Source: Segetibacter sp. 3557_3 (GTDB lineage Bacteria > Bacteroidota > Bacteroidia > Chitinophagales > Chitinophagaceae). From it: a DNA stretch of 64,000 nt. Position 1 is the stretch's first letter. Every line of letters begins with the position of its first letter. The translations under genes were made by a program, and so were the position numbers. Under the pieces are notes generated by a model that ran no database searches, was not told the DNA's origin, and saw only the letters and a list, made by a program, of their open reading frames with translations. Positions 3,830-17,959 of this stretch are shown here, in pieces. The stretch is from assembly GCF_004354985.1 (NCBI RefSeq), contig NZ_SMSK01000004.1, forward strand, positions 62,001 to 126,000, given 5' to 3'.

Positions 3830-5270
3830 CAAGTTACGTATGTTTTAGAATTACACGTACAAGCCCCGGGGGGTCACTTGGTTCGAAGATGATGTTTGGC
3901 TTTTCTTCATACCCTGCTGCGTCGGAATAGGTGGGCGGGTAAAAAAAGAAGAAGAGTCGCTATCGATGCGCAGCCGTAATGTTGTTTTGGGATCGCAAGA
4001 AGCTTGCATTGTTTTGCGTTCCCGAACCTCAAGGCCAATGTTTTGCCAAGGGATCTGTCACCCACGAGTTGCGAATCAGGATCACGTAAAAGTATTTAGG
4101 GGCACAGCTATAAGAATTTGTTTCCGAATCTCATCTAGCCCGGTAACCCCATCAGGGATCTACCGCTCTTCACCACATTAATCCAAATGCCAACCCAAGG
4201 AACACCGCCGCAACGGCCCGCCCGGATGACTCCGGTCTGACGGGCCCGCCCGAGTGCGCAGCAGGCGGGCAAAAAGGAAGAGAAAACATAATTGGTACAA
4301 GAAATGCCATCCACAGCGGGATCATGCTAGAAGCACTAATTGGAATTTTAGGACGCACAAGAGGTCGCGAAATAGAAAATGATTGCTCTTGTTTCCGACT
4401 TGAAGTGGTTCTAAGAACCCGATCTATCCGTGTTCGGGGTGCCCTGCGGAACACCCCGAACAAAATTCAATCTCTGCTTTGGATTTGTTCCTGAACCCTC
4501 ATTCTGTTCGTGAATCCTTCAGGGAACCGCCGCACTTCACCACAGTACTACAAAAGCTTAATCAGGGAACCTCGCCGAGAACACCCGTCCGGATGACTCC
4601 GTTCGGACGGGCCCGTCCGACTGCGCAGCAGGCGGAGGCTGTTATTGTTCTTCCCCAACGCTTTGGGGATCTTTTTTGCCTTCCTGATTGCCTGCCCCGC
4701 CACGAGGGTAGAGGTTAGCCGGCGGGGGACAAGCCCCCGTCCGAACCCGGGTTCATCCGGGCGGGCGTCCGACTGGCGCAGCCGGGCGGGCAAAAAGGAA
4801 GAGAAAATATCATTAGATCTGAAACGTGATCCGAGTACGAATTTATTTGCGAGCAAAGGTTGCCTGCCCGCCATGAGGTGGAGGTTAGATGGCGGAGGGA
4901 CAGGACCCTCCGACTGCGCAGCCGAGCGGCGCCTGGCCGGATGAATCCGGTTCAGACGGCCAAAAAGGAAGAGAAAATATGATTTGTTCAGAGACGTGAT
5001 ACAAGAACGATTCTATTTGCGAGCAAAATGCCTTCAGGGAACACCTGCCCTTCACCACAGCACCAGAAAAGCTCACTGAGGGAACGCTCTGCCGCCCTAA
5101 TGATCATGGAGTACATCAAAAAAAAATCGCTTTGATTTCAGTTTAGTGAAACCGGTTTTTTTCATAAGGAAAGGAACAAGGGTTGCTGCATGTTAACGAT
5201 TGTGCTATTCCCCCGACTAGCCGACTTACAGTTGCTTGCATTTGCCAGCCAATAGCCGTATCTTAAAGAG
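3830..5270. repeat. Non-coding zone of degenerate dispersed repeats
   Basis: About 1.4 kb without a convincing gene. Several related blocks recur here. One is CTTCACCACA followed by a variant of AATCAGGGAACC. Another is the GC-rich CCCGTCCGACTG block. A third is AAAAAGGAAGAGAAAA (starts at 4271, 4792 and 4962, and again at 6631 as AAAAAGGAAGAGAGAA). CTTTGGGGATCTTTTTTGCC is shared with 6540-6590. These make up repeat units of roughly 250-400 bp, each carrying a different degree of decay. I see no transposase. Short open frames inside are repeat-derived. Confidence 0.7.
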
Positions 5271-5278
5271 AAAATGCT

Positions 5279-6073
5279 ATGGCCAGAGCTTTCTGCCTTC
5301 TAATAATAGTGGCTGCATGCAGCTATACTATTCCAGCCGGGAAACCTGATCTTCAAATGGCGGGTGCTTACCGTATGTTGACCCAGGTGTTTACCCGTGG
5401 GGAGCAAGACACCTCGTATGATGCCGCAAAGCAATTGAAAATCTATACGCCGCAGCATATGATGTACGCGAACATCTTGCCCGGAGGGGCTGACACCTTT
5501 TCCTCTTTTGGCGTGGGACGCTATTCGATAAAGGATGGGAAAGTTATTGAAGACATCTTCTACAGCGGCTCGGATACAAGTGTCAACAGTACTACCAGGT
5601 CGTACACCCTTGACATTACCAAATCCGCTAAAGGATATAAACAGGTGATCGACGCTATTGGAACCTCAAATGGACAGAAGTTGAAATTGACAGAGACCTA
5701 TGAACAGATTGGTTCAGCACAAAAATCACCTGTCGATGGTACATGGAAACTCGTGAAGGTGTATTCGGTTAGTGGAAAGGACACCACCGACAGTAAGGTC
5801 ACACAATACAAGACCTATTATGCCGGTCATTTTATATGGGGTCGCACCGCGCTGAACGACGCGGGTAAAAATGAAACGGCAGTTGGCTTCGGATCGTTTG
5901 AAATGAATGGACAGCAGAAATTGAGAGAGACTGTCTTTGCCTCCACCTATTCCGTCTTAAACGGACAAACAGTAGCAATTGATATCAAAATGAATGGCAC
6001 CGACAGCTATATACAAAGCTTTAATGTTTCAGATAATGAGGTACATACTGAGGTGTATAGCCGGCTGAAATAG
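5279..6073 (+). CDS. Secreted lipocalin-like protein of unknown function
   Basis: A 264-residue protein with a short hydrophobic N-terminus (FCLLIIVAAC), suggesting export; Cys14 could be a lipidation site but the lipobox is not classic. The rest is rich in beta-strand patterns. It seems to hold two related halves: residues about 25-125 (LKIYTPQHMMYANI, FGVGRYSI) and 150-260 (YKTYYAGHFIWGRT, VGFGSFEM). This suggests duplicated lipocalin-like beta-barrels. I chose ATG 5279; the ATG five bases upstream is in another frame. It stands alone between two repeat zones, so context gives no function. Confidence 0.75.
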   Translation: MARAFCLLIIVAACSYTIPAGKPDLQMAGAYRMLTQVFTRGEQDTSYDAAKQLKIYTPQHMMYANILPGGADTFSSFGVGRYSIKDGKVIEDIFYSGSDTSVNSTTRSYTLDITKSAKGYKQVIDAIGTSNGQKLKLTETYEQIGSAQKSPVDGTWKLVKVYSVSGKDTTDSKVTQYKTYYAGHFIWGRTALNDAGKNETAVGFGSFEMNGQQKLRETVFASTYSVLNGQTVAIDIKMNGTDSYIQSFNVSDNEVHTEVYSRLK

Positions 6074-6079
6074 CCCCGA

Positions 6080-6890
6080 TTAGTTTGATCGAAATTGCTG
6101 ACCGGAAGAGCCTGAAACGGGTTCAGGATTAACGGCAACTTGAACACTTTTAACACCCTCCAAATCAATGTGCTGCCCGGGGATCCTGAACCCACACAGT
6201 TTGGGGATCAGGATGACGGTTCGTTGTTTCACATCGCGATCACCCTCCAATAGCAATTTTTGCCACGGAATCCTGATCCCCTACGTAGTTGGGGACAGGC
6301 CGACGGTGCGGAGTTGGGAGGATGTTCTTTCTTTCAGAACGGGATGTTATGCCAGCGGATCCTGAACTGAATTCAGGATGACGATTCTTTGCTTCTCATG
6401 ACGATGGTCTTCCAATAGCTATGTTTTGCCGTGCTTTGTCTCCAAACATTGTCCCGGTCGTAAATCCTTCAATGAACCACTGCTCTTCACCACAGTACCA
6501 CAGAAGTCAAATCAGAGAACCCTGCCAGGAATGAGCTGTTATCATTCTCCCAAACGATGTTGGGGATCTTTTTTGCCTTCCTGTTGCCTGCCCCGCCTTG
6601 GGCGTTGAGGTTAGCTGGCGGGGGACAAGCAAAAAGGAAGAGAGAATGTTCTTAGCTCGGAAGCGTTTTACGAGTACGAATTGAGGTGCAAGTATATTAA
6701 TTGCGGCACGCACCCCAGTACAAGAGTGCGACCCGCCAACTCTGTTGGGGGCACGGCGCAACGATTTACAATTGAAATACCCAAGCCGGGTCCATAAGAA
6801 TCAATTACAAAACGACATGTAATTCAGAGTGTTGATTCATATCCATTAAAGTTCTTTTAACGGCTCGTACGTGCGTATTCGTAAGCTTTC
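6080..6890. repeat. Repeat-filled intergenic zone
   Basis: No convincing gene. The left part has alternating copies of a block around GGATCCTGAACCC and GGGGATCAGGATGACG (6178-6220, 6265-6300, 6355-6385). The right part (6420-6700) is another copy of the unit seen at 4480-5100, including CTTCACCACAGTACCACAGA and AAAAAGGAAGAGAGAA. At 6745-6765 GTTGGGGGCACGGCGCAACG also occurs at about 34100-34120. Confidence 0.65.
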
Positions 6891-6892
6891 AA

Positions 6893-6930
6893 ATAAAACA
6901 AAAACGGCCCGCAGCATTCTGCGGACCGTT
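6893..6930 (-). terminator. Rho-independent terminator of the CE15 esterase gene
   Basis: On the minus strand a 12-bp stem (AACGGTCCGCAG / CTGCGGGCCGTT, one G-T pair) with an AATG loop is followed by a T-rich tract. It lies 27 bases after the stop of the esterase gene. Confidence 0.9.
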
Positions 6931-6957
6931 ACTATATAAAACAGGATATCGGTAATC

Positions 6958-9651
6958 TTACTGCACCACAACCTGCACCTGCTCACCTCCAGCTTTCAGC
7001 ATATAAACACCCGCACCCAGCTGCTTATCTAATTTGAGGCGAACAAGCCCGTTTTGAACATTCATCAACTTACTGAGTACAACCACCCCTGCAGCATTGT
7101 ACATGGTTATTTGCTGCTGCCGCACGTCCGAACGCCCCAGGTCAATGTTGAGCTCCGAACGAACAGGATTGGGAAACACCCTTATCGCCGCCTTACGACC
7201 ACTCACGGTAACAGAACGGATACCCAAAGACCTTTCCATCCCATCCGCATCCACCTGTATAAGGCGATAATAGTTTATCCCCTCCACCGGCTTCAGGTCG
7301 GTATAAGCATAGTGTAATCGAACACTCGAATTACCATTGCCTGCCAGTGTAGCGATGGTGCTGTAGGTTATGCCATCAGTACTTCTTTCGAGCCGGTATT
7401 GCTTATTCTTAATTTCTGATGTCGTACTCCAACTGATCCGGACGGCTTTCGCCGGGGTTACAGTCGCTTGGTAACTCACCAGGTTTACCGGCAACGCAAG
7501 ACAATTGGCGGCATTGTCGCCCTTACCACTTACCGGGGTACTAAAAGTGGTGATCAGCACTTTGTCCAGTTGTACGTTTCCTTCCCGGAAGCCAAAAGCC
7601 AGGGTATGATTCCCCACGCTCAGCGGTACACTCCTTAAGGTAACCCATTGCCAGCCACCGGTGCCGCCCACTTCGCGTACACTAGCGTCGTCGATATAGT
7701 AGGTATTGGCCACTTGCCCCATATCGAATAAAAAGGTCGTGGACGTTATAGACGCCGTAAAGGTCCACGTAACCTGCTGCCAAGTGGTGCCAATCGTTTG
7801 ATCGCCCTGGTATTGAGCACTGGTGGGACCGGTAGAAAGCCGGATGGAACCCCCGGGGTTCAGCGCCTTCACCCAATAGCTCACCTGGTATTGTTTACCG
7901 ATGGTCGTCGGGAACGCTACGCTCGACACCTGCACCCGCCATTGGTTGCCCGGCTGTGCCGTTGGGTTCACCACCTTCATGGCCCCGGTGCCGGTGCGAA
8001 CTTCATCTGCAACCATCGTGGCCGTTACAGTAGCACCACCCTGTGCGTTCGCCGTGGCCCACCCCGTAAGTCCATTATCAAATCCGCCATTCGGCAACAA
8101 CAGGCTGCTCACCATCTGATAAGCGCCCGTATCCAGTTTCATCCAGTAGCTATATTCCTCGCCTGCCGGTGCATAGATGCGCGTAAGCAGGTTGTAGGAG
8201 GCCGCACTATCGATGCTGAAGGGCATGGTCAGGTAGGCGGAGTCCCCCTGGGGCGGTGTAGCCGTACTACTGCGCCCGCTTTTCACCCCAACGTATCTGC
8301 CGTTGGATGCTGCCGTGTCGGAAACCAAATTCCAGCTGGAACCGATGGTTGCACACTCGGCCTCCAGCCAGATCTTTCTGCCGGGGGGAGGAGGTAATAC
8401 CGGGTTGCCGGTTCCCCACCACTGTGTCCAGCGGCGGTAATCTACCGCTGGGAAAGGATGCACCAGTATACTATCAGTATTCACCCCGCTGATACCCGCC
8501 ATAAATTTGTCAACAAACGCCTGCACAGCTGGTATCTGGGTTCCGGGTATCTGACAATGGCCATGCCCGCCATCCACGTAAAAACCAAAGCGGTCGCCAA
8601 TGCCAAGCGTATCGTAGATCTGCCTGGCGGCACGTGCGGTAATATATGCCGCCTGGTTCGACAGCCAGGTAAAGTCGGTATTTGCGGTCACCAATAGGGC
8701 GCGCGGGGCAATCATGGCCATCAGCTCATGATGGTCGTGCGGCAGTTTGTAAACATTGTCGCCGGAGAACAAGGCCATACTATCCCTGAACCAGCGATAA
8801 TCGGTATTGTCAATTTTTTCTACGGTTCCATTTGGCTCAACCTCATGCGACACCCGCCATGATGGTGCGCCCCCGCCGCCCGACTCCTGGGCAATGGTGA
8901 GTGCAATACGTTCGTCGAATGCTCCTGCAAACAGGGCCATTTTGCCCGCATAAGAACAGCCGGTAACGCCAATCCGCTGCATGTTCACAGGAAAAGCTGC
9001 CTGCACCAGTTCCAGTCCGTCGATAATACGGCTAACCCCCCACGACCATGCGGCATATTGGCCGGAGTTAGAAAGGTTGTATTCAGGGTATAAACGGAAA
9101 AACGGGTCGGTTATCTGGGGGTTGCCATAGGTGGTAACATTGTTTGCGTTGAATCGGATCCTGGCAATGCCGCGACGCGCAAAAACGGAGTCGGGAACAC
9201 TACCAGACTGGGTATTCATTCCAATTAGGGCAGGAAAGCGGCCATTCCCTGCAGGCCGAAGTACCTGCGACATTAAGGTAAGCGATTGTCCGTTCCGGGT
9301 CACCACTACCCGCAGCGTATCGGGGGCACCAGTTGCACCGGTAGTATAGCTGGCGGTAACGCTCTCCGGCTTTGGCGGTTTGGTTCCGATTTCGTAATGT
9401 TCAATCTCCTTCATGATTTCGTTGCGGCGGCACTCCCAATCGGTGAAACGGGTAGAGCGCCCGCTGCCGTTCGACCACATAAACGGGTCGGGCAGGGGTT
9501 GGATCACCGGCAACTGGCTGATGTGCGGTAAAGGTGGGGGTGCGCACGACGAGCCCGTATTTTCTACCCCGTAAACGAGTGGAATCTGTGCACTCAGGCC
9601 GGTGCAAATGCAGCCAAGCAGGAGCGTAGCAAGCGTAAATTTCGATTTCAT
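6958..9651 (-). CDS. Secreted multimodular CE15 glucuronoyl esterase with CBMs and T9SS domain
   Basis: An 897-residue exported enzyme. After a signal peptide (cleavage near LSAQ), residues about 50-390 form a carbohydrate esterase family 15 domain. It has GCSYAGK (nucleophile Ser233), Glu256 in AQES and His363 or His365 in GGHGHC. CE15 enzymes cut esters between lignin and glucuronic acid on xylan. Residues 426-514 and 666-701 look like two halves of one CBM35/CBM6-type module, split by a CBM4/9-like module (about 516-661). An Ig-like stretch and a T9SS sorting domain (823-897) end the protein. I took ATG 9651 over the TTG two codons upstream. No xylanase is nearby. Confidence 0.9.
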   Translation of the reverse strand: MKSKFTLATLLLGCICTGLSAQIPLVYGVENTGSSCAPPPLPHISQLPVIQPLPDPFMWSNGSGRSTRFTDWECRRNEIMKEIEHYEIGTKPPKPESVTASYTTGATGAPDTLRVVVTRNGQSLTLMSQVLRPAGNGRFPALIGMNTQSGSVPDSVFARRGIARIRFNANNVTTYGNPQITDPFFRLYPEYNLSNSGQYAAWSWGVSRIIDGLELVQAAFPVNMQRIGVTGCSYAGKMALFAGAFDERIALTIAQESGGGGAPSWRVSHEVEPNGTVEKIDNTDYRWFRDSMALFSGDNVYKLPHDHHELMAMIAPRALLVTANTDFTWLSNQAAYITARAARQIYDTLGIGDRFGFYVDGGHGHCQIPGTQIPAVQAFVDKFMAGISGVNTDSILVHPFPAVDYRRWTQWWGTGNPVLPPPPGRKIWLEAECATIGSSWNLVSDTAASNGRYVGVKSGRSSTATPPQGDSAYLTMPFSIDSAASYNLLTRIYAPAGEEYSYWMKLDTGAYQMVSSLLLPNGGFDNGLTGWATANAQGGATVTATMVADEVRTGTGAMKVVNPTAQPGNQWRVQVSSVAFPTTIGKQYQVSYWVKALNPGGSIRLSTGPTSAQYQGDQTIGTTWQQVTWTFTASITSTTFLFDMGQVANTYYIDDASVREVGGTGGWQWVTLRSVPLSVGNHTLAFGFREGNVQLDKVLITTFSTPVSGKGDNAANCLALPVNLVSYQATVTPAKAVRISWSTTSEIKNKQYRLERSTDGITYSTIATLAGNGNSSVRLHYAYTDLKPVEGINYYRLIQVDADGMERSLGIRSVTVSGRKAAIRVFPNPVRSELNIDLGRSDVRQQQITMYNAAGVVVLSKLMNVQNGLVRLKLDKQLGAGVYMLKAGGEQVQVVVQ

Positions 9652-9761
9652 ATGCAATGGTTAATGGATGATGTTTTAAAAAAATATTGGAAACCGTAAA
9701 CTGCCCGATACTGGGTTATCGCAGGAAGGATGGATTGGATTATTTGGGCGTATCCCCAAGC

Positions 9762-9835
9762 CTGCCCCGTTGAAGCCGGGGCTGGGCAAGGGGTCGGGCT
9801 TTCCCCGTCCGAATGGCTTCAGCCGGGCGGACGTT
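9762..9835. repeat. GC-rich dispersed repeat copy
   Basis: Contains CCTGCCCCGTTGAAGCCGGG, then TCCCCGTCCGAATGGCTTCA and GCCGGGCGGACG. It matches the CCGTCCGACTGGCGCAGCCG family seen at 3-5 kb and 59.1 kb, and lies upstream of the esterase gene. Confidence 0.65.
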
Positions 9836-9839
9836 CCTA

Positions 9840-10556
9840 TCCCTTACGCAATCGTTCCTGCACAGCTAAATAATCGGTGCTGACCATTACGGCGCATCAA
9901 CCTGGTAAAGCCAACAAAATTTAGAAGGGGTTTGGGAGAGATTTCTGACGATTACGCTTGTCAAATAAACAACCAAGAACATAGATTTCCGGCGGGTTTT
10001 GCCGTCGGCGTCTTTGTGGTATTTGGAATAAAAGCATAGCAGTCGTTTTCGTTTGAGTGAGTAAATTAAACCAAAATGCGAATATTGCAACCGATTGCAG
10101 AAAAATTTCTTTTCGGGTTGATTAGTTGATTTTACTGCATCAGTCGGCTAATCCGCCGCGAAAATGCCCGGCAACATTTAGCTTTCTTGAAAACAATACT
10201 CCTGGATATTAAGAGCTTGGAAACGTTGACTACAGACCTGAATACTGGTTAATACGCTTTATCGTGGCAGGAGATAGCCATTCCAGCCTTTTGAGGATGG
10301 CAACTGCTGTGGGGCAAACATCATCGTGACTGGTAGCCGAAACCGGTTGCATTGCAGGTAAAGCCGGAGTTAAAAATTATGAGTTATGACTTAAGAGTGG
10401 GTTCTGGTGTCAGGAGAGATAAAAAGGTTTTCTTTTTTGGTTGCTATGATCGTTGTTTTGTTCAAAAAATGCGATTGATCGTGTCTTCTATTTTTTGAAA
10501 TCACCCATTTAAAGAAGGATAGGTAAAGTTAGAGCGGCATCAACTTGTCTGTAGAT
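9840..10556. other. Intergenic stretch with no supported gene
   Basis: About 0.7 kb between the esterase gene and the repeats before the DUF1016 gene. A 67-codon open frame on the minus strand (9887-10090) has no recognisable domain and no promoter. I see no RNA gene. Confidence 0.5.
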
Positions 10557-10686
10557 GCTATGTGTATTTCCTATGTTTCTATGATCCTATGCGGTGGTGA
10601 TCGTTAACATCAAAAAGCACTGCCAACCCGTAAAACGTCTTTGTGTACCACATAGACACATCGTCCAAATAGTAGGAACACATAGC
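10557..10686. repeat. 130-bp element with imperfect terminal inverted repeats
   Basis: Both ends read GCTATGTGT inward and continue with similar sequence (TTCCTA near each end, ATGTGG inside). A related element with the same words (TATGTGTCTATTTGG, CCACATA, AACACATAG) is at 23829-23955. The layout resembles a non-autonomous, MITE-like element, but target-site duplications are not obvious. Confidence 0.55.
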
Positions 10687-10849
10687 AGCGATGTTAATTG
10701 CAGTGATCAGAAAAGATAATGATTAATGAAACTTGATTGGTTGGTCGTCTTCCCTTGTATAAGATGGTCATTCGCTATTGCTTAACCCGACACAGGAAGC
10801 ATCGGCAATAACGTAGTTTAGATCGTTCGATTACGCTTTCCTGAATCAC

Positions 10850-11095
10850 CAACCCACTCATAACTCCTAATGCTTAACTCATAACTTTCCTCACCTCTCA
10901 TCGAACCCACTCATAACTCCTAACTTTTAACTCAGAACTCTCTCTTTCCTCTCATCGAACCCACTCATAACTCATAATTCTTAACCCATAACTTTTCCTC
11001 ACCTCCCATGGTTCGATTACGCTCTCCCGACCCACAAATACACTCATAATTCATAATTCTCAACTCATAACTCCATTCAACATTCAACATAATTC
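10850..11095. repeat. Tandem low-complexity repeat of about 60 bp
   Basis: Three or four degenerate units of CCCACTCATAACTCCTAAC plus TTTCCTCACCTCTCATCGAA precede the stop of the DUF1016 gene. Related short words (CATAACTC, TCATCACTC) occur at 23.65-23.8 kb. Confidence 0.7.
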
Positions 11096-12175
11096 CTACC
11101 CCTCCCGCTCCAGCCGAAAGTGCAACAACTCCCGCTCCACTTCTGCTTTCAGCTCTTTCTCCGAAGGCAGGTACAGTTTGTATTTGGACGCAAACAATTG
11201 CTTGCTGTCTTTTAGCACGGAGTATTTTACCACAGTTTCATTTTTCTCCGAGCAAAGGATAATCCCAATGGTAGGGTTGTCCGTTTCTCCCTTAATGTGT
11301 TCTTCGAACCAGCGCACATAAAGGTCCATCTGCCCGATGTCCTGGTGGCTGAGCTTTCCCAGTTTCAGGTCGATCAGGATGAAGCACTTCAGGATATAGT
11401 TGTAAAATACCAGGTCGACATAAAAGTGGTCGTCTCCGGCGGAGATACGCTTTTGTTGGGCGACAAAAGAGAAGCCTTTACCGAGCTCAAGCAGGAAGTG
11501 TTGGAGCTTTAAGATGACTGCATTTTCGAGGTCTTTCTCCAGGAACCCGCTTCCGGATGGCAGGTCAAGAAACTCCAGCACATACGGATCCTTGATAAAG
11601 TCTTCGGGAACGGCCGCAAGTTCACCCGTGACGTTATGGGCCTCGTCGCTCACCCCCTTGCTGTTTTTAGAAGAAACGATCCGTTCGTAATAAAAGGTGT
11701 TGATCTGTCTTTCAAGCGCACGGGTGCTCCAGTTTTGTGCTATTGCTTCCCGCATGTAGTACTTACGGGCGGATTCATTTTCAACCTTCAACAGCAGGCG
11801 ATAGTGCGTCCACGATAATTCGTCACGCAGCGCGTGACCTTTTTCCAGGCCGTGCCCGGATCCGTCACGCGCTGCGTGACTTTTCTCCACTGGCGGAAAC
11901 ACCAGGTAAAACTGCCGGCAGTATTTCAGGTTCGTTTCGGTGAACCCTTTCCCGAATTCAGCGGTAAGTTTTTTCGACAACTGTTTTAGTGTACCTGTTC
12001 CATATGTCGCTTTCACGTCGCCTGACTGCTCGTGTTCTACAATACGCCGCCCGATGTTCCAATAGGCAACCACCATGGAAAAGTTTACCGCACGGTAGGC
12101 CGTTGTCCGGGCCTGCTCAATAATGGACCTGATTTCATCATAAAGCATTTGCTCGTTGACATCGTTCATATGCAT
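11096..12175 (-). CDS. DUF1016/YhcG-family PDDEXK nuclease
   Basis: A 359-residue protein of the YhcG family. It has an N-terminal DUF1016_N helical domain (YDEIRSIIEQARTTAYRAVN, then MVVAYWNIGRRIVEHEQ) and a C-terminal PD-(D/E)XK nuclease domain (about 190-340). The nuclease core is FYVDLVFYN followed by CFILIDLKLGKL, with the acidic residue and lysine of the active site. The family is common on mobile and defence islands. Whether it acts as DNase or RNA nuclease here is unknown. ATG 12175 is preferred over TTG 12205. A 17-base perfect inverted repeat inside the gene (11822-11838 and 11864-11880) encodes HALRD and HAARD. Confidence 0.88.
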   Translation of the reverse strand: MHMNDVNEQMLYDEIRSIIEQARTTAYRAVNFSMVVAYWNIGRRIVEHEQSGDVKATYGTGTLKQLSKKLTAEFGKGFTETNLKYCRQFYLVFPPVEKSHAARDGSGHGLEKGHALRDELSWTHYRLLLKVENESARKYYMREAIAQNWSTRALERQINTFYYERIVSSKNSKGVSDEAHNVTGELAAVPEDFIKDPYVLEFLDLPSGSGFLEKDLENAVILKLQHFLLELGKGFSFVAQQKRISAGDDHFYVDLVFYNYILKCFILIDLKLGKLSHQDIGQMDLYVRWFEEHIKGETDNPTIGIILCSEKNETVVKYSVLKDSKQLFASKYKLYLPSEKELKAEVERELLHFRLEREG

Positions 12176-12220
12176 CTGTTTTATCGCATCACCTGCGTCT
12201 TCCAATATTAGGGAAAATGG

Positions 12221-12297
12221 TTGATCAGTGATCGTTGATAGGTTGATCAGTTGATTGGTTGATAAGTTGATAGTTTGAGAAGTTGATAAGTTGACTG
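12221..12297. repeat. GTTGATnnGTTGAT-type simple repeat
   Basis: A run of degenerate GTTGAT/AGTTGATAAGTTGA units just upstream of the DUF1016 gene. The complement, ATCAACCTATCAACCAGTCA, fills 18.94-19.05 kb, and other copies lie near 23.62 and 23.71-23.75 kb. Confidence 0.75.
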
Positions 12298-12339
12298 GGG
12301 AATTCCGATGCCAAAACGAGGGGTTGTTTTGCTAGTAGG

Positions 12340-13235
12340 GAAGGTGCAGTGCCAGGCAGATGCTATCGATGCTAAAACAGGGGATTGCTTCGCTGCGCTC
12401 GCAATGACGGTGCAGCATGCTGGGCTCGCAAGGAAGGTGCAGTGCCAGGCAGATGCTATCGATGCTAAAACAGGGGATTGCTTCGCTGCGCTCGCAATGA
12501 CGGTGTAGTATGCTGCTCGCGCAATGACGAAGGATGCAGGGTATTTCATTCATCATTACCAAGGGATTGCTTCGCTGCGCTCGCAATGACGGTCAGTGCC
12601 AGGCAGATACTAACGATGCCAAAACAAGGGATTGCTTCGCTGCGCTCGCAATGACGGTCAGCTTGCTGCGCGCAGGGAAGGTGCAGTGCCAGGCAGATGC
12701 TAACAATGCCAAAACATGGGATTGCTTCGCTGCGCTCGCAATGACGAACAGGATGCTGCGCGCAAGGAAGGTGCAGTGCCAGGCAGATGCTAACGATGCC
12801 AAAACATGGGATTGCTTCGCTGCGCTCGCAATGACGAACAGGATGCTGCGCGCAATGACGGTGCAGTGCCAGGCAGATACTAACGATGCCAAGACAAGGG
12901 ATTGCTTCGCTGCGCTCGCAATGACGGTCAGCTTGCTGCGCTCGCAATGACGAAGGATGCAGGGTATTTCATTCATCATTACCAATGGATTGCTTCGCTG
13001 CGCTCGCAATGACGGTCAGTGCCAGGCAGATGCTATCGATGCTAAAACAGGGGATTGCTTCGCTGCGCTCGCAATGACGGTCAGCTTGCTGCGCGCAGGG
13101 AAGGTGCAGTGCCAGGCAGATGGTAACGATGCCAAAACCTGGGATTGCTTTGCTGCGCGCGCAATGACGGTTGTGCCAGGCAGATGCTATCGATGCCAAA
13201 ACAAAGGATTGCTTCGTGCCTTGCAATGACGATCC
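12340..13235. repeat. Tandem array of about 11 REP-like units
   Basis: Eleven copies of ATTGCTTCGCTGCGCTCGCA start at about 12384, 12477, 12566, 12631, 12721, 12811, 12901, 12989, 13054, 13144 and 13208; the last two are degenerate. Spacings are near 90 bp or near 65 bp. Nine copies of CAGTGCCAGGCAGATGCTA alternate with them. A second-order repeat is visible: the block AGGGTATTTCATTCATCATT at 12538 recurs at 12960, about 421 bp later. Because 90 is a multiple of three, long open frames appear on both strands; these are artefacts. The core resembles the ATTGCGAGCGCAGCGAAGCA repeat family found between genes in many environmental bacteria. Confidence 0.9.
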
Positions 13236-13333
13236 ATTCATAGTTCATCATTCATAGTTCATCGTTATTACCCCTGATTATAATATATTTAATGCCCAAT
13301 TGATAAGCTCCACCTGACACCCCAAATCTTTTT

Positions 13334-16300
13334 ATGCAAAAACTTTTACGAAACCTTTCCTGCACCTTTTTATTCCTCGTTGTCGCCGCAATTCATACGA
13401 CAACCTATGCACAGGTAAACAAACAAAAGGCGCCGCAATCCGATGCAGAACTGTATGCACTCGTCAACAAATACGTGCAAACACCGGTTACCAAAACAAC
13501 CGCCCCGAATGGCGACGTTTTCCTCCAGCGCGACATGAGCCAATACCTGCACGCAAACGTGTTTAAAGCGCCCGAGGTAGGTCCATCGGAAATCGACAAA
13601 GGGCACGACCATAAAGACGATATGCTCCGCGAGTTCCTGAACCGCCCGCACCCAAGCATGGGCACCATGAACAAATACTTTCAACAGGCTGCTGCCGAAT
13701 TTAGCGTACCCGTGCAGCTGTTAAAGGCCACTGCACAGGTGCAAAGCAACTGGGCACAGGTATCAGCGTCCATGTACGGTTCCTGGGGTGTCATGGGGAT
13801 CATCGAAAACCCTTACGTTCAACAAATCAGTCTTGCTGCAAAACTGCTGAACGTTAAGCCGGCAGCAATCCAAAACGATGCGCAAACCAACATCCGCGCA
13901 GCTGCTGCCTTACTTGCCCATTATCAAAAAGGCAAGCCGTCTATTACCCTTGAAAACTGGTTTGAGTCGATGAGCTCCCTGACTGGCCTTACCGATGCAG
14001 CCATGGCCAATGAGCTTGCTGTTCGCATTTATGACCTGCTAAAATCGGGTAGCAGAACCGTTAGCCTCTGGGGTGAGATCATTGCAATTGATCCAATCGA
14101 TGTATCCCTTGCGCGAACGATAACTGAACCGGAAATAAAGCCCGCAACCCAACGCACCACAGCGGTCGACTACCCCAATGCAGTTGCCAACTTCACCACC
14201 TGCAACTTCAATAGCCGTCCGGCCGGAAGTGCGATCAAATACTATTTTGTACACTATGTCGGAACCGGAACCTACCAGGGTGCGATCAGCTGGTTTAAAG
14301 ACTGCTCCTCTAATGTAAGTGCCCATTACGTGGTTCGGAATAATGATGGAGAGGTAAGCCAGGTGGTAGCAGAAAACGATCGCGCATGGTCGCAGGGGGT
14401 TGCCACTTATAACGACATGGGCATTGGCGTAGAACACGAAGTCATTGCAACCAACCTGTCGATGTGGGACAGCGAGCCCATGCTCGCATCTGCAGCAAAC
14501 CTGTGTGGTAATGTTTGTAACCGAAGAGCTATCCCTAAGGTCCGCCGGGTAAACAATGGCGATCCTGGTATCTATGGCCATAGTGATGTTCGCGCCACCG
14601 AGTGCCCGAATTTAACCCCCGCCCGCTGGGCCGCCTTCCTTACCCGTGTAAACTCGGTAAACGTTGCTGCTCCAATCTTATATAGTGTTGCCAATCCCGG
14701 AAACGGTACAGGCTTAAGCGTAAGCTGGAAAGCAAACATAGAGCCTGCGCTAGCTGGTTACCGCCTGTACTATGCCAACAGCGATGCAATGACAAGCTGG
14801 TCTCTAGCGGCTGATGAAACAACATTAACTGCAACAACCACATCTGTTACGCTTGACGCAGCACAATTCCTGGTGCCACCTTCGGGTGATGTATACCACT
14901 TCAAGCTGACGGCCGTTGTAGCAGATGGCGCCAACCGGGTAGAAAGTACATCCAGCGATATCTACTCAAGGTCATCCAATACAACAGGACCAAAAGTCCT
15001 GATCGTCGATGGCTTCGACCGCTTCGGCGGCAGCGGGTCATACCAGAACTCGACCCATCCGTTTGTAACCAGTTATTTCAAATCTCTTAGGAATAAAGCG
15101 GCACTGCAAATCAGCAGTGTTGCCAATGAAAGGGTTGAAGACGGATCGTTTCCGCTAACCGGTTATGATATGGTTGTGTGGTTTGTCGGCGACGAGTCGA
15201 GCGCGAACGTGGTTTTCTCTGCCGCTGAAAAAGCAGCCATAATCGGTTACCTGAATGGCGGGGGTAAACTCATCGTCTCCGGTTCTGAAGTTGCTTACAA
15301 CGTTGGCCGCACAGCTTCAACCACCTACGACGCCAACTTCATGAATAACTACCTGAAGTCGACTTATGTGGGTGACGGCGCAGTAGCCTACACACCCGCT
15401 ACCGGTATAGCAGGTACGCCTTTCGAAGGACTCAACATACCTTTCGGCATAACTTATCCCGAAGACTTCCCCGATGCTATTGCGCCTGCAAACGGATCTA
15501 TAGCCATCCTCAACTACAGCGTTAGTCCGAACAGGGGTGGTATTGCCTACAAAGGCACATTTGGTTCGGGGACTACCCCTGGCGGAGTGATCTTCCTTTC
15601 TTTTACCCTGGAGACTGCAGCAGACAGCTCCATCACGGCTTTTATGGGTAAAGCGCTTGCTTATTTCGACATTCCTGTAGTAACCACACCAACGGCGAAT
15701 GAAGATGTGGCAACGGCGCAAACCAGTACTGCAAAACGCATCAACGTACTCACCAATGATTACAACAACGGTATCCCTTTCGACCTCACAACACTTACCA
15801 TTGTTCGGGGCCCATCAAATGGTACCGTAGCTAAAGATAATGGGGGTAACATAACCTATACTGCAAACCCGGGTTATATCGGCAGCGATACCATTACCTA
15901 CACCATCCGCAACACCACCGGCCAGGTTTCAAATCCTGCTACGATGATCATTACCGTGGTAGCAGCTGGTGATTGCGATCCAACCCCGCCGGAAGTAGAG
16001 GATCAATTTCCAAAACGTGATCTAAGGGGTGCATGGGTGTCAACGGTCTCGAACATCGACTGGCCCTCGTCACGTACCCTTACTACTGCCCAGCAGCAGG
16101 CTGAACTGATCAGGATACTGGATACCCTTGCCCGTACCAACATCAACACTGTATACCTCCAGGTTCGGCCAGAGTCCGACGCCCTGTATGCATCAGCTCT
16201 TGAACCGTGGTCGTACTGGCTCACAAACGCGCAGGGTACCGCGCCAAGTCCTTTATGGGATCCACTCGCATTTGCAATTGAAGCGGCACACGCCCGGGGT

Positions 16301-17959
16301 ATGGAACTGCATGCCTGGCTAAACCCCTATCGCGCAAAACAAAGCACCCCGGTATTGGCGCCGAATCACGTGGCCAGCTTACATCCTGAATGGACCTTTG
16401 CTGCCGGCACCTTAACTATGCTTAACCCTGGGTTACCGGCTGTACGCAGTCACCTGACAAATGTTATAGCTGATATTGCTACCCGGTACGACGTCGACGG
16501 AATCCATTTTGATGATTACTTCTATCCCACGGCAAGCTTTACCAACCAGGATAGCCTGACTTATGTAAATAACAACCCAAATGGCATCACGAACATCGGC
16601 GACTGGCGACGTGATAATGTAAACCAGCTCATTGCAAAAGTTTACGACACCATAGCCGCGATCAACGAGGCGAAAAACCGCAACATCATCTTCGGTGTCA
16701 GTCCGTTTGGTATCTGGAAAAGCGGCACGCCTCCGGGCATTACGGGCAACTCTTCTTATAGTGCCATGTATGCCGATCCCATCGCGTGGATGCAGGCTGG
16801 CAAGGTTGACTATGTGGCCCCGCAACTCTACTGGAAAATCGGCGGTCCGCAGGATTATAATGCGCTTTCAAAATGGTGGAACGACCAGGCTGAAGACAAC
16901 AACAGGTATATCTACCCCGGCCTTGCTGTTTACCGGATGGCCGATGCGAGCAATTGGGAAGCTGCAGATATCGAAGGGCAGATTACGTTAAACCGGGACC
17001 AAAATCGCCAACAGGTACAAGGGCAGATTCTCTTCAGTACCCGGCACCTCATGACGAATGTAAAGGGCATTAGAACCTCGCTGCAGAATAACCAGTTTCG
17101 CTACAAATCGTTCCCGGCAGCTATGCCATGGAAAGACGGGGTATGTCCGAATGCACCGGTTAATGTGCGCCGCCAGCAGGACTCCCTGCTTTGGAATGCA
17201 CCTGCTCCGGCAGTGGATGGCGACGGCGCGAGAAAATACGTAGTGTATCGCTTTGCCAATTCAACCGAAGCCTTAACGCATAAAAATGATGGAACAAAAA
17301 TATACGCGATCGTTCCGACACCCAACCTTGCACTTGATGCAGCAGCAATAGCGGGCAACCCCTACTTTGTTGTAACTGCACTAGACGACAACAACAACGA
17401 AAGCACACCGGGTACAGGAGTCGTATTGCCCATTACCGGTTTCACCTTCCAGGCTAAGTTAAATGGCAATACCGCAGTGCTAAACTGGAGCACCCTTGCA
17501 GAGGTCAACACCAAACGGTTTGATATTGAAAGGAGCATTGATGGCACGGCCTATACTTATGTAGGTACCGTTTGGGCAGCCGGGTATAGCACAGGCAAAC
17601 GGGATTACAACCTGTCTGACTTCCTGCCCGCGGCAGGCACTTATTATTACCGGGTAAAGAGCCTTGATGCAGATGGCCTGGCAATTTATTCGATGGTAAG
17701 AAGCGTAGTGTACCAGCCTAAGGGTAATGGTATCGTGCTGGGACCAAATCCATTCAAAACAGGCTTAAACATCAGCAACCTGCAGGGTGTAAAAAGGTTG
17801 GACATGCTTGATGTATCGGGACGGGTAGTGCTAACCAGATCACTTGCCGGACAGCTTACGATGCATATGGATGCAGCACATTTACCTGCCGGGGTTTATC
17901 ACCTCAGGGTCATTAGAACAGATGGTGCCAAAACCTTTATTAAGGTGGTTAAACTTTAG
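13334..17959 (+). CDS. Secreted amidase / GHL10 glycosidase fusion with T9SS domain
   Basis: A 1541-residue exported protein (signal peptide to about 26). Residues 105-240 resemble a lysozyme-like helical domain (KATAQVQSNW, YGSWGVMG, AQTNIRAAAALLAHYQ). Residues 280-440 form an N-acetylmuramoyl-L-alanine amidase (Amidase_2) domain with zinc ligands His307, His416 and Cys424. A fibronectin-like domain, a ThuA/GATase1-like fold (553-780) and a cadherin-like beta domain (785-877) follow. Residues 893-1260 are a GHL10 glycosidase (RGAWVSTVSNIDW, VDGIHFDDYFYP at 1054-1065), the family of E. coli DigH, which cuts peptide-free peptidoglycan. Fn3 repeats and a T9SS sorting domain (about 1465-1541) end it. 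It probably degrades cell walls of other cells. Confidence 0.88.
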   Translation: MQKLLRNLSCTFLFLVVAAIHTTTYAQVNKQKAPQSDAELYALVNKYVQTPVTKTTAPNGDVFLQRDMSQYLHANVFKAPEVGPSEIDKGHDHKDDMLREFLNRPHPSMGTMNKYFQQAAAEFSVPVQLLKATAQVQSNWAQVSASMYGSWGVMGIIENPYVQQISLAAKLLNVKPAAIQNDAQTNIRAAAALLAHYQKGKPSITLENWFESMSSLTGLTDAAMANELAVRIYDLLKSGSRTVSLWGEIIAIDPIDVSLARTITEPEIKPATQRTTAVDYPNAVANFTTCNFNSRPAGSAIKYYFVHYVGTGTYQGAISWFKDCSSNVSAHYVVRNNDGEVSQVVAENDRAWSQGVATYNDMGIGVEHEVIATNLSMWDSEPMLASAANLCGNVCNRRAIPKVRRVNNGDPGIYGHSDVRATECPNLTPARWAAFLTRVNSVNVAAPILYSVANPGNGTGLSVSWKANIEPALAGYRLYYANSDAMTSWSLAADETTLTATTTSVTLDAAQFLVPPSGDVYHFKLTAVVADGANRVESTSSDIYSRSSNTTGPKVLIVDGFDRFGGSGSYQNSTHPFVTSYFKSLRNKAALQISSVANERVEDGSFPLTGYDMVVWFVGDESSANVVFSAAEKAAIIGYLNGGGKLIVSGSEVAYNVGRTASTTYDANFMNNYLKSTYVGDGAVAYTPATGIAGTPFEGLNIPFGITYPEDFPDAIAPANGSIAILNYSVSPNRGGIAYKGTFGSGTTPGGVIFLSFTLETAADSSITAFMGKALAYFDIPVVTTPTANEDVATAQTSTAKRINVLTNDYNNGIPFDLTTLTIVRGPSNGTVAKDNGGNITYTANPGYIGSDTITYTIRNTTGQVSNPATMIITVVAAGDCDPTPPEVEDQFPKRDLRGAWVSTVSNIDWPSSRTLTTAQQQAELIRILDTLARTNINTVYLQVRPESDALYASALEPWSYWLTNAQGTAPSPLWDPLAFAIEAAHARGMELHAWLNPYRAKQSTPVLAPNHVASLHPEWTFAAGTLTMLNPGLPAVRSHLTNVIADIATRYDVDGIHFDDYFYPTASFTNQDSLTYVNNNPNGITNIGDWRRDNVNQLIAKVYDTIAAINEAKNRNIIFGVSPFGIWKSGTPPGITGNSSYSAMYADPIAWMQAGKVDYVAPQLYWKIGGPQDYNALSKWWNDQAEDNNRYIYPGLAVYRMADASNWEAADIEGQITLNRDQNRQQVQGQILFSTRHLMTNVKGIRTSLQNNQFRYKSFPAAMPWKDGVCPNAPVNVRRQQDSLLWNAPAPAVDGDGARKYVVYRFANSTEALTHKNDGTKIYAIVPTPNLALDAAAIAGNPYFVVTALDDNNNESTPGTGVVLPITGFTFQAKLNGNTAVLNWSTLAEVNTKRFDIERSIDGTAYTYVGTVWAAGYSTGKRDYNLSDFLPAAGTYYYRVKSLDADGLAIYSMVRSVVYQPKGNGIVLGPNPFKTGLNISNLQGVKRLDMLDVSGRVVLTRSLAGQLTMHMDAAHLPAGVYHLRVIRTDGAKTFIKVVKL

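Follow-up and report, generated by a model that had tools for sequence, protein, structure and literature searches.

In a 64,000-nt stretch of the Segetibacter sp. 3557_3 genome (contig NZ_SMSK01000004.1, positions 62,001 to 126,000; hereafter the window, numbered from its first nucleotide), one open reading frame (ORF) joins a peptidoglycan amidase to a GHL10 glycosidase in a single exported chain. This 1541-aa ORF (13334..17959, plus strand, as are all its domains) encodes the whole fusion protein, as judged from the ORF list and orthologue comparison. With a probability of about 0.6, we read the product as an exported multi-domain murein hydrolase that would clamp murein, remove its peptides and cut its glycan outside the cell, most likely for scavenging. 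A first-pass annotation had placed an Amidase_2 zinc site and a GHL10 domain in the same polypeptide and proposed that they act in sequence. The pairing is confirmed, with both sites intact and conserved among relatives, and the interpretation is partly supported. Pfam scores exceed the respective cut-offs for Amidase_2, Big_9, GHL10 and a type IX secretion system (T9SS) tail, whereas SLT falls short of its own.

The zinc amidase (residues 299–425, 14228..14608) scores 81.8 bits against Amidase_2 (PF01510; curated cut-off 26). Its zinc ligands, His307 (14252..14254), His416 (14579..14581) and Cys424 (14603..14605), are identical in all 15 N-terminal relatives, window protein included, as is Glu367 (14432..14434). 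Cysteine also serves as the third zinc ligand in T7 lysozyme and the peptidoglycan recognition proteins. Glu367 aligns with the glutamate of the AmpD IGIE motif, which we take to be catalytic. AmpD is a weak match to this region in a single-sequence search of solved chains (E 0.024), and a profile search matches AmpDh3, AmpDh2, AmpD and AmiD (E 3e-8 to 1e-5).

The GHL10 domain (residues 890–1260, 16001..17113, delimited by Pfam, the Cwp19 match and relatives) reaches 212.4 bits against PF02638, for which the curated cut-off is 27.9. Cwp19 is the nearest solved chain for residues 894–1249 (E 3e-85, 290 bits), ahead of DigH with 225 bits for the domain query. The label DigH-like is therefore too narrow, and a DigH-only reading was dropped. 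An alignment inspected by eye shows that the window protein has all 13 active-site residues named for Cwp19 (PMC5765458), and DigH has 12, differing only at S368. Across the 11 full-length fusions, 11 of these 13 positions never vary; the other two are F367, replaced by Tyr in one fusion, and S368, replaced by Arg in five. The pair Asp1060-Asp1061 (16511..16516), equivalent to Cwp19 Asp195-Asp196, is kept in 11/11 full fusions and 41/41 GHL10 domains, DigH among them. Alignment thus shows that neither the GHL10 acids nor the amidase ligands, whose loss the annotation had named as fatal to its proposal, are missing. The family spans both DigH-type and Cwp19-type activities: DigH degrades denuded glycan (PMC12288456), whereas Cwp19 is a lytic transglycosylase (LT) on peptide-bearing murein that releases anhydro-muropeptides from Micrococcus murein (PMC6016235). 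Since Cwp19 cuts murein with its peptides in place, membership in GHL10 does not imply an obligatory amidase-first order. The Segetibacter genome holds five GHL10 matches over cut-off, the fusion and four others; L004, a divergent paralogue, differs at several site positions (L and G labels denote loci and genomes).

At the front of the protein (residues 105–245, 13646..14068), the annotation had seen a lysozyme-like helical region. The fold holds, being that of a family 1 lytic transglycosylase (SLT, PF01464), but the catalytic glutamate does not. Here, a structural model of the LT–amidase unit was compared with solved structures by re-examining Foldseek's own candidates. The window protein scores 16.2 bits against the SLT profile (cut-off 21.3), and its orthologue L111 scores 22.8. 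In the alignment, Gln137 (13742..13744) sits where MltF and an LT C chain have their catalytic Glu. Gln occupies this position in 15/15 N-terminal relatives and Ala in ten distant relatives; across 32 LT-like modules the residue is Q in 18, A in 10 and E in 4. The natural domain already has the Glu-to-Gln substitution by which structural biologists inactivate LTs, as in two solved structures whose titles call them inactive mutants, E64Q of MltE and E503Q of Slt. Because the glutamate is replaced by Gln or Ala, we predict that the front domain is a non-catalytic holder, and a third active enzyme at this site was judged unlikely.

To trace the fusion, residues 95–445 were searched against 394 genomes from the window's family. 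Including the window protein itself, 14 close matches were found (58–100% identity), and the remaining matches in the 89 matching genomes are far weaker, mostly short Amidase_2 hits. Eleven of the 14 contain the whole protein, GHL10 included, in one ORF; in G148 the fusion is split across two contigs, and in G591 the contig ends before GHL10. A metagenome-assembled genome, Chitinophagaceae bacterium Ww74, encodes a 1515-aa ORF identical to L111, a locus from the window's family. In a tree of 41 GHL10 domains, the 12 fused ones form one group with support 100/100, and this single clade fits one origin of the fusion. Among the matches listed from 296 phylum genomes, the longest other GHL10 frame is 856 aa; in 36 genomes selected for a further search, frames reach 1114 aa. 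Presence is patchy (14/394 family genomes, 2/9 in the window's genus), as expected of an accessory function.

Amidases are paired with glycan cutters elsewhere in the Bacteroidota. The pseudo-LT–Amidase_2 unit also fronts the Amidase_2–SpoIID proteins L075, L114 and L116 (profile E 2e-10 to 4e-18) and, by the same profile, is joined to a ricin-type lectin in L113. All three exceed the cut-off for SpoIID; for the T9SS tail, L116 exceeds it and L075 and L114 narrowly miss it. Denuded glycan is a substrate of SpoIID, which in Waddlia also attacks peptide-carrying murein (PMC6635528). SpoIID occurs in 4/191 family genomes. We also observed that L075, L114, L116 and L119, all Amidase_2–SpoIID proteins headed by a pseudo-LT domain, come from a single large-genome genus within the family; the SpoIID assignment comes from Pfam for the first three and from the SpoIID search of family genomes for L119.

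Pairings with other partners recur as well. In the distant Bacteroidota genome G536, a single ORF (L172, 2503-5844) joins GHL10 (E 1.5e-32) to Amidase_3 (7.6e-35), and the neighboring L167 (3357-6164) is a GHL10–NamZ fusion. At L086 and L166, a GHL10 frame overlaps that of an Amidase_3–GATase1-like–T9SS protein. The L086 run (4430-16931, Cyclobacteriaceae) comprises MFS, GH3, GHL10, the Amidase_3–GATase1-like–T9SS protein, an unknown protein, SusC and SusD, and looks like a murein utilization locus. L120 contains a same-strand run of GHL10, pseudo-LT–Amidase_2, a BadF-type kinase and GH3. This recurrence supports a predicted coupling of peptide removal with glycan cutting, and does not prove order, bond specificity or role.

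Between the two enzymes, Foldseek of the model against pdb confirmed a GATase1-type fold for residues 549–782 (14978..15679), in line with the ThuA/GATase1-like fold that had been proposed, but the catalytic Cys of GATase1 is absent, the region containing no Cys at all. Among 30 GATase1-like module sequences, at E 0.1, DUF4960 (PF16324) matches 12 and ThuA (PF06283) six; the window module matches DUF4960 with E 0.011 and 15.8 bits, under the cut-off of 29.2. By analogy with GH42-type enzymes and DUF4960, this accessory domain may serve in oligomerization or glycan contact without catalysis. It is preceded by an Fn3-like domain (residues 443–548, 14660..14977) that has no Pfam match in the window protein and is assigned by resemblance to relatives, several of which have a similar stretch before the GATase1-like domain; in L166, for example, Pfam places fn3 there. 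A Big_9 immunoglobulin (Ig)-like domain follows (residues 785–873, 15686..15952; Pfam). Beyond GHL10 lie two Ig/Fn3-like modules (residues 1262–1465, 17117..17728), with boundaries drawn by eye; they resemble parts of other exported proteins and have no Pfam match in the window protein.

Export is indicated at both ends of the chain, by a predicted signal peptide read by eye from the sequence (approximately residues 1–26, 13334..13411) and by a T9SS type A sorting tail (residues 1471–1534, 17744..17935). The tail is over the Pfam cut-off and NCBIfam agrees; SprA, a T9SS core protein and the sole part of the machinery examined, was found in the genome. In L083, L107, L108, L109 and L111, a different, unrecognized C-terminal region stands in place of the type A tail (L108 by alignment alone).

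We propose that the inactive LT-like domain would hold or thread a glycan strand while the adjoining zinc amidase, as its family and intact ligands suggest, takes stem peptides off N-acetylmuramic acid. The GHL10 TIM barrel, acting as a muramidase or a lytic transglycosylase, would then cut the glycan, with a preference or at least a tolerance for the freshly stripped strand. The T9SS would put the protein outside the cell, where foreign or shed walls could be degraded, most likely for nutrients. Judged from sequence comparison, coupled peptide removal and glycan cutting of extracellular murein is the most likely function of the fusion, and an amidase-then-glycan order is plausible. We lean toward a scavenging role: the gene is patchily distributed, its product bears an export tail and some relatives have catabolic neighbors, although no such neighbors were seen at the window locus.

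Several observations weigh against this reading. The N-terminal relative G697 lacks GHL10, its sequence lying in two overlapping ORFs in different frames. The claim that the tail sends the fusion outside is backed here by the tail and SprA but does not extend to every relative: no T9SS type A tail is seen in at least four full-length orthologues (L083, L107, L109 and L111), which may therefore leave the cell by another route. No murein-catabolic gene was found among nine neighboring window ORFs scanned, and ten compared loci show no synteny with distant orthologues. An amidase-first order is not compulsory either, given the action of Cwp19 (PMC6016235) and Waddlia SpoIID (PMC6635528) on peptide-bearing murein. 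Linkage statistics are likewise modest, strong as individual pairings are. A GHL10 stands no more than 12 kb from 5/44 GATase1-like loci, where chance would give 1.35 (Poisson P 0.012; some of the pairs were already known when this was calculated). Of the five partners, all but that in G567 were examined; L122 is a GH18 protein and L170 has no recognized enzyme.

In 20 GHL10 regions picked blind to their neighbors, Pfam gave one sure amidase (L141) and phmmer flagged two more (L128 and L140), compared with 0/20 control regions. At E 0.001, Pfam gave no Amidase_3 in these phmmer-flagged neighbors of L128 and L140; for this reason, and because the L122 partner is a GH18 protein, we softened a stronger claim that GHL10 and amidases are linked. 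The blind regions represent 21 of 25 GHL10 rows with frames of at least 784 aa, own genome aside, among the matches listed; G445 and G207 (fetched earlier for proximity), G257:C94 and G253:C5 were left out, and L120, L121, L122 and L086, selected for proximity or obtained in another search, stand outside the count. BadF-, MFS- and NlpC-type genes adjoin a second GHL10 in 3/20 blind regions (L129, L130 and L139), and the 20 controls gave single BadF, NlpC, GATase1-like and SusC matches, in one region each.

These data bear on other readings of the protein. The two activities might share a chain without acting in any order, with GHL10 cutting intact murein and the fusion just raising local concentration. 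This is a serious minority view, as the nearest solved relative (290 bits) makes anhydro-muropeptides from Micrococcus murein (PMC6016235), but the joining of a related pseudo-LT–amidase to SpoIID, a digester of denuded glycan, favors substrate coupling, even if SpoIID also takes peptide-bearing murein. Slightly less probable is that the protein serves attack instead of scavenging, being secreted to lyse prey or competing bacteria. The tail would export such a protein, and the bifunctional amidase–lysozyme effector TseP provides a precedent (PMC11893102), yet transport and catabolic genes occur in related gene runs, and no conserved partner gene of at least 90 aa lies beside the gene in ten loci, the shared flanks of L083 and L109 aside, though a smaller partner could escape.

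A housekeeping autolysin for daughter-cell separation would parallel E. coli, where septal murein processing involves both DigH and amidases (PMC12288456). Such a role is improbable in the face of the T9SS tail, the occurrence in just 14/394 genomes and the presence of four further above-cut-off GHL10 matches in this genome. We consider a trifunctional protein, with the front domain still catalytic via another residue, more improbable still, as only four of the 32 LT-like modules retain Glu. The scavenging hydrolase remains our preferred reading. A broader, tentative suggestion is a plug-in murein-stripping system in Bacteroidota. In it, the dead LT might keep its glycan groove as a clamp or slide for the amidase, different lineages might add different cutters of peptide-free glycan (GHL10, SpoIID), and one exported chain might processively yield peptides and sugars.

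An operon at the window locus is not supported by the nine scanned neighbors: three have no Pfam family, and the others have no murein link. Among these others are a PhoD-like phosphatase, a T9SS-tailed glucuronoyl esterase (GCE_fung) with a CBM_4_9 domain (6958-9657, minus strand) and a YhcG/DUF1016 PDDEXK nuclease protein (11096-12205, minus strand). Directly upstream of the fusion, positions 12306-13255 hold approximately ten copies of a repeat unit of about 90 nt, across which the long open frames on both strands look spurious. The synteny comparison covered the window, L080-L083, L085, L105, L109, L111 and L112 (L085 and L111 being the same contig), with L106-L108 not included. Shared Ig/T9SS-type domains aside, flanking ORFs are shared in just L083 and L109, a near-identical pair.

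The component domains, and bifunctional amidase–glycosidase hydrolases as such, are known. Staphylococcal Atl likewise combines an amidase with a glucosaminidase, but it is a Gram-positive autolysin with a different glycosidase and is processed into two enzymes. TseP of Aeromonas dhakensis also carries an amidase and a glycan cutter on one chain (PMC11893102), yet its glycosidase is different, it is delivered by a type VI secretion system and it has an immunity protein. Cwp19 of C. difficile shares the GHL10 catalytic barrel and all 13 site residues and, unlike the fusion, has CWB2 anchors and no amidase (PMC6016235). E. coli DigH, with 12/13 site residues and activity on denuded glycan (PMC12288456), is a lone-GHL10 protein whose partner amidases are separate. 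Closer to the fusion, L075, L114 and L116 share the pseudo-LT and Amidase_2 front and a T9SS-type tail, whereas SpoIID replaces GHL10 and Ala replaces Gln at the LT site. G536 L172 also unites amidase and GHL10 in one polypeptide, but in reversed order, with Amidase_3, with no T9SS tail at E 0.01 and with a GHL10–NamZ neighbor.

Among the papers listed in searches of the open-license literature, we found no description of a GHL10–amidase fusion, nor of the combination with a natural pseudo-LT; this does not prove absence, and the combination appears to be new. Exported murein-degradation modules of Bacteroidota (amidase, GHL10, NamZ and SpoIID, once beside SusCD-type uptake genes) represent a possible route for wall scavenging. 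Compared with cell division, where separate amidases, LTs and DigH follow an amidase-then-glycan-cut logic, the fusion would offer a single-chain system for the same logic.
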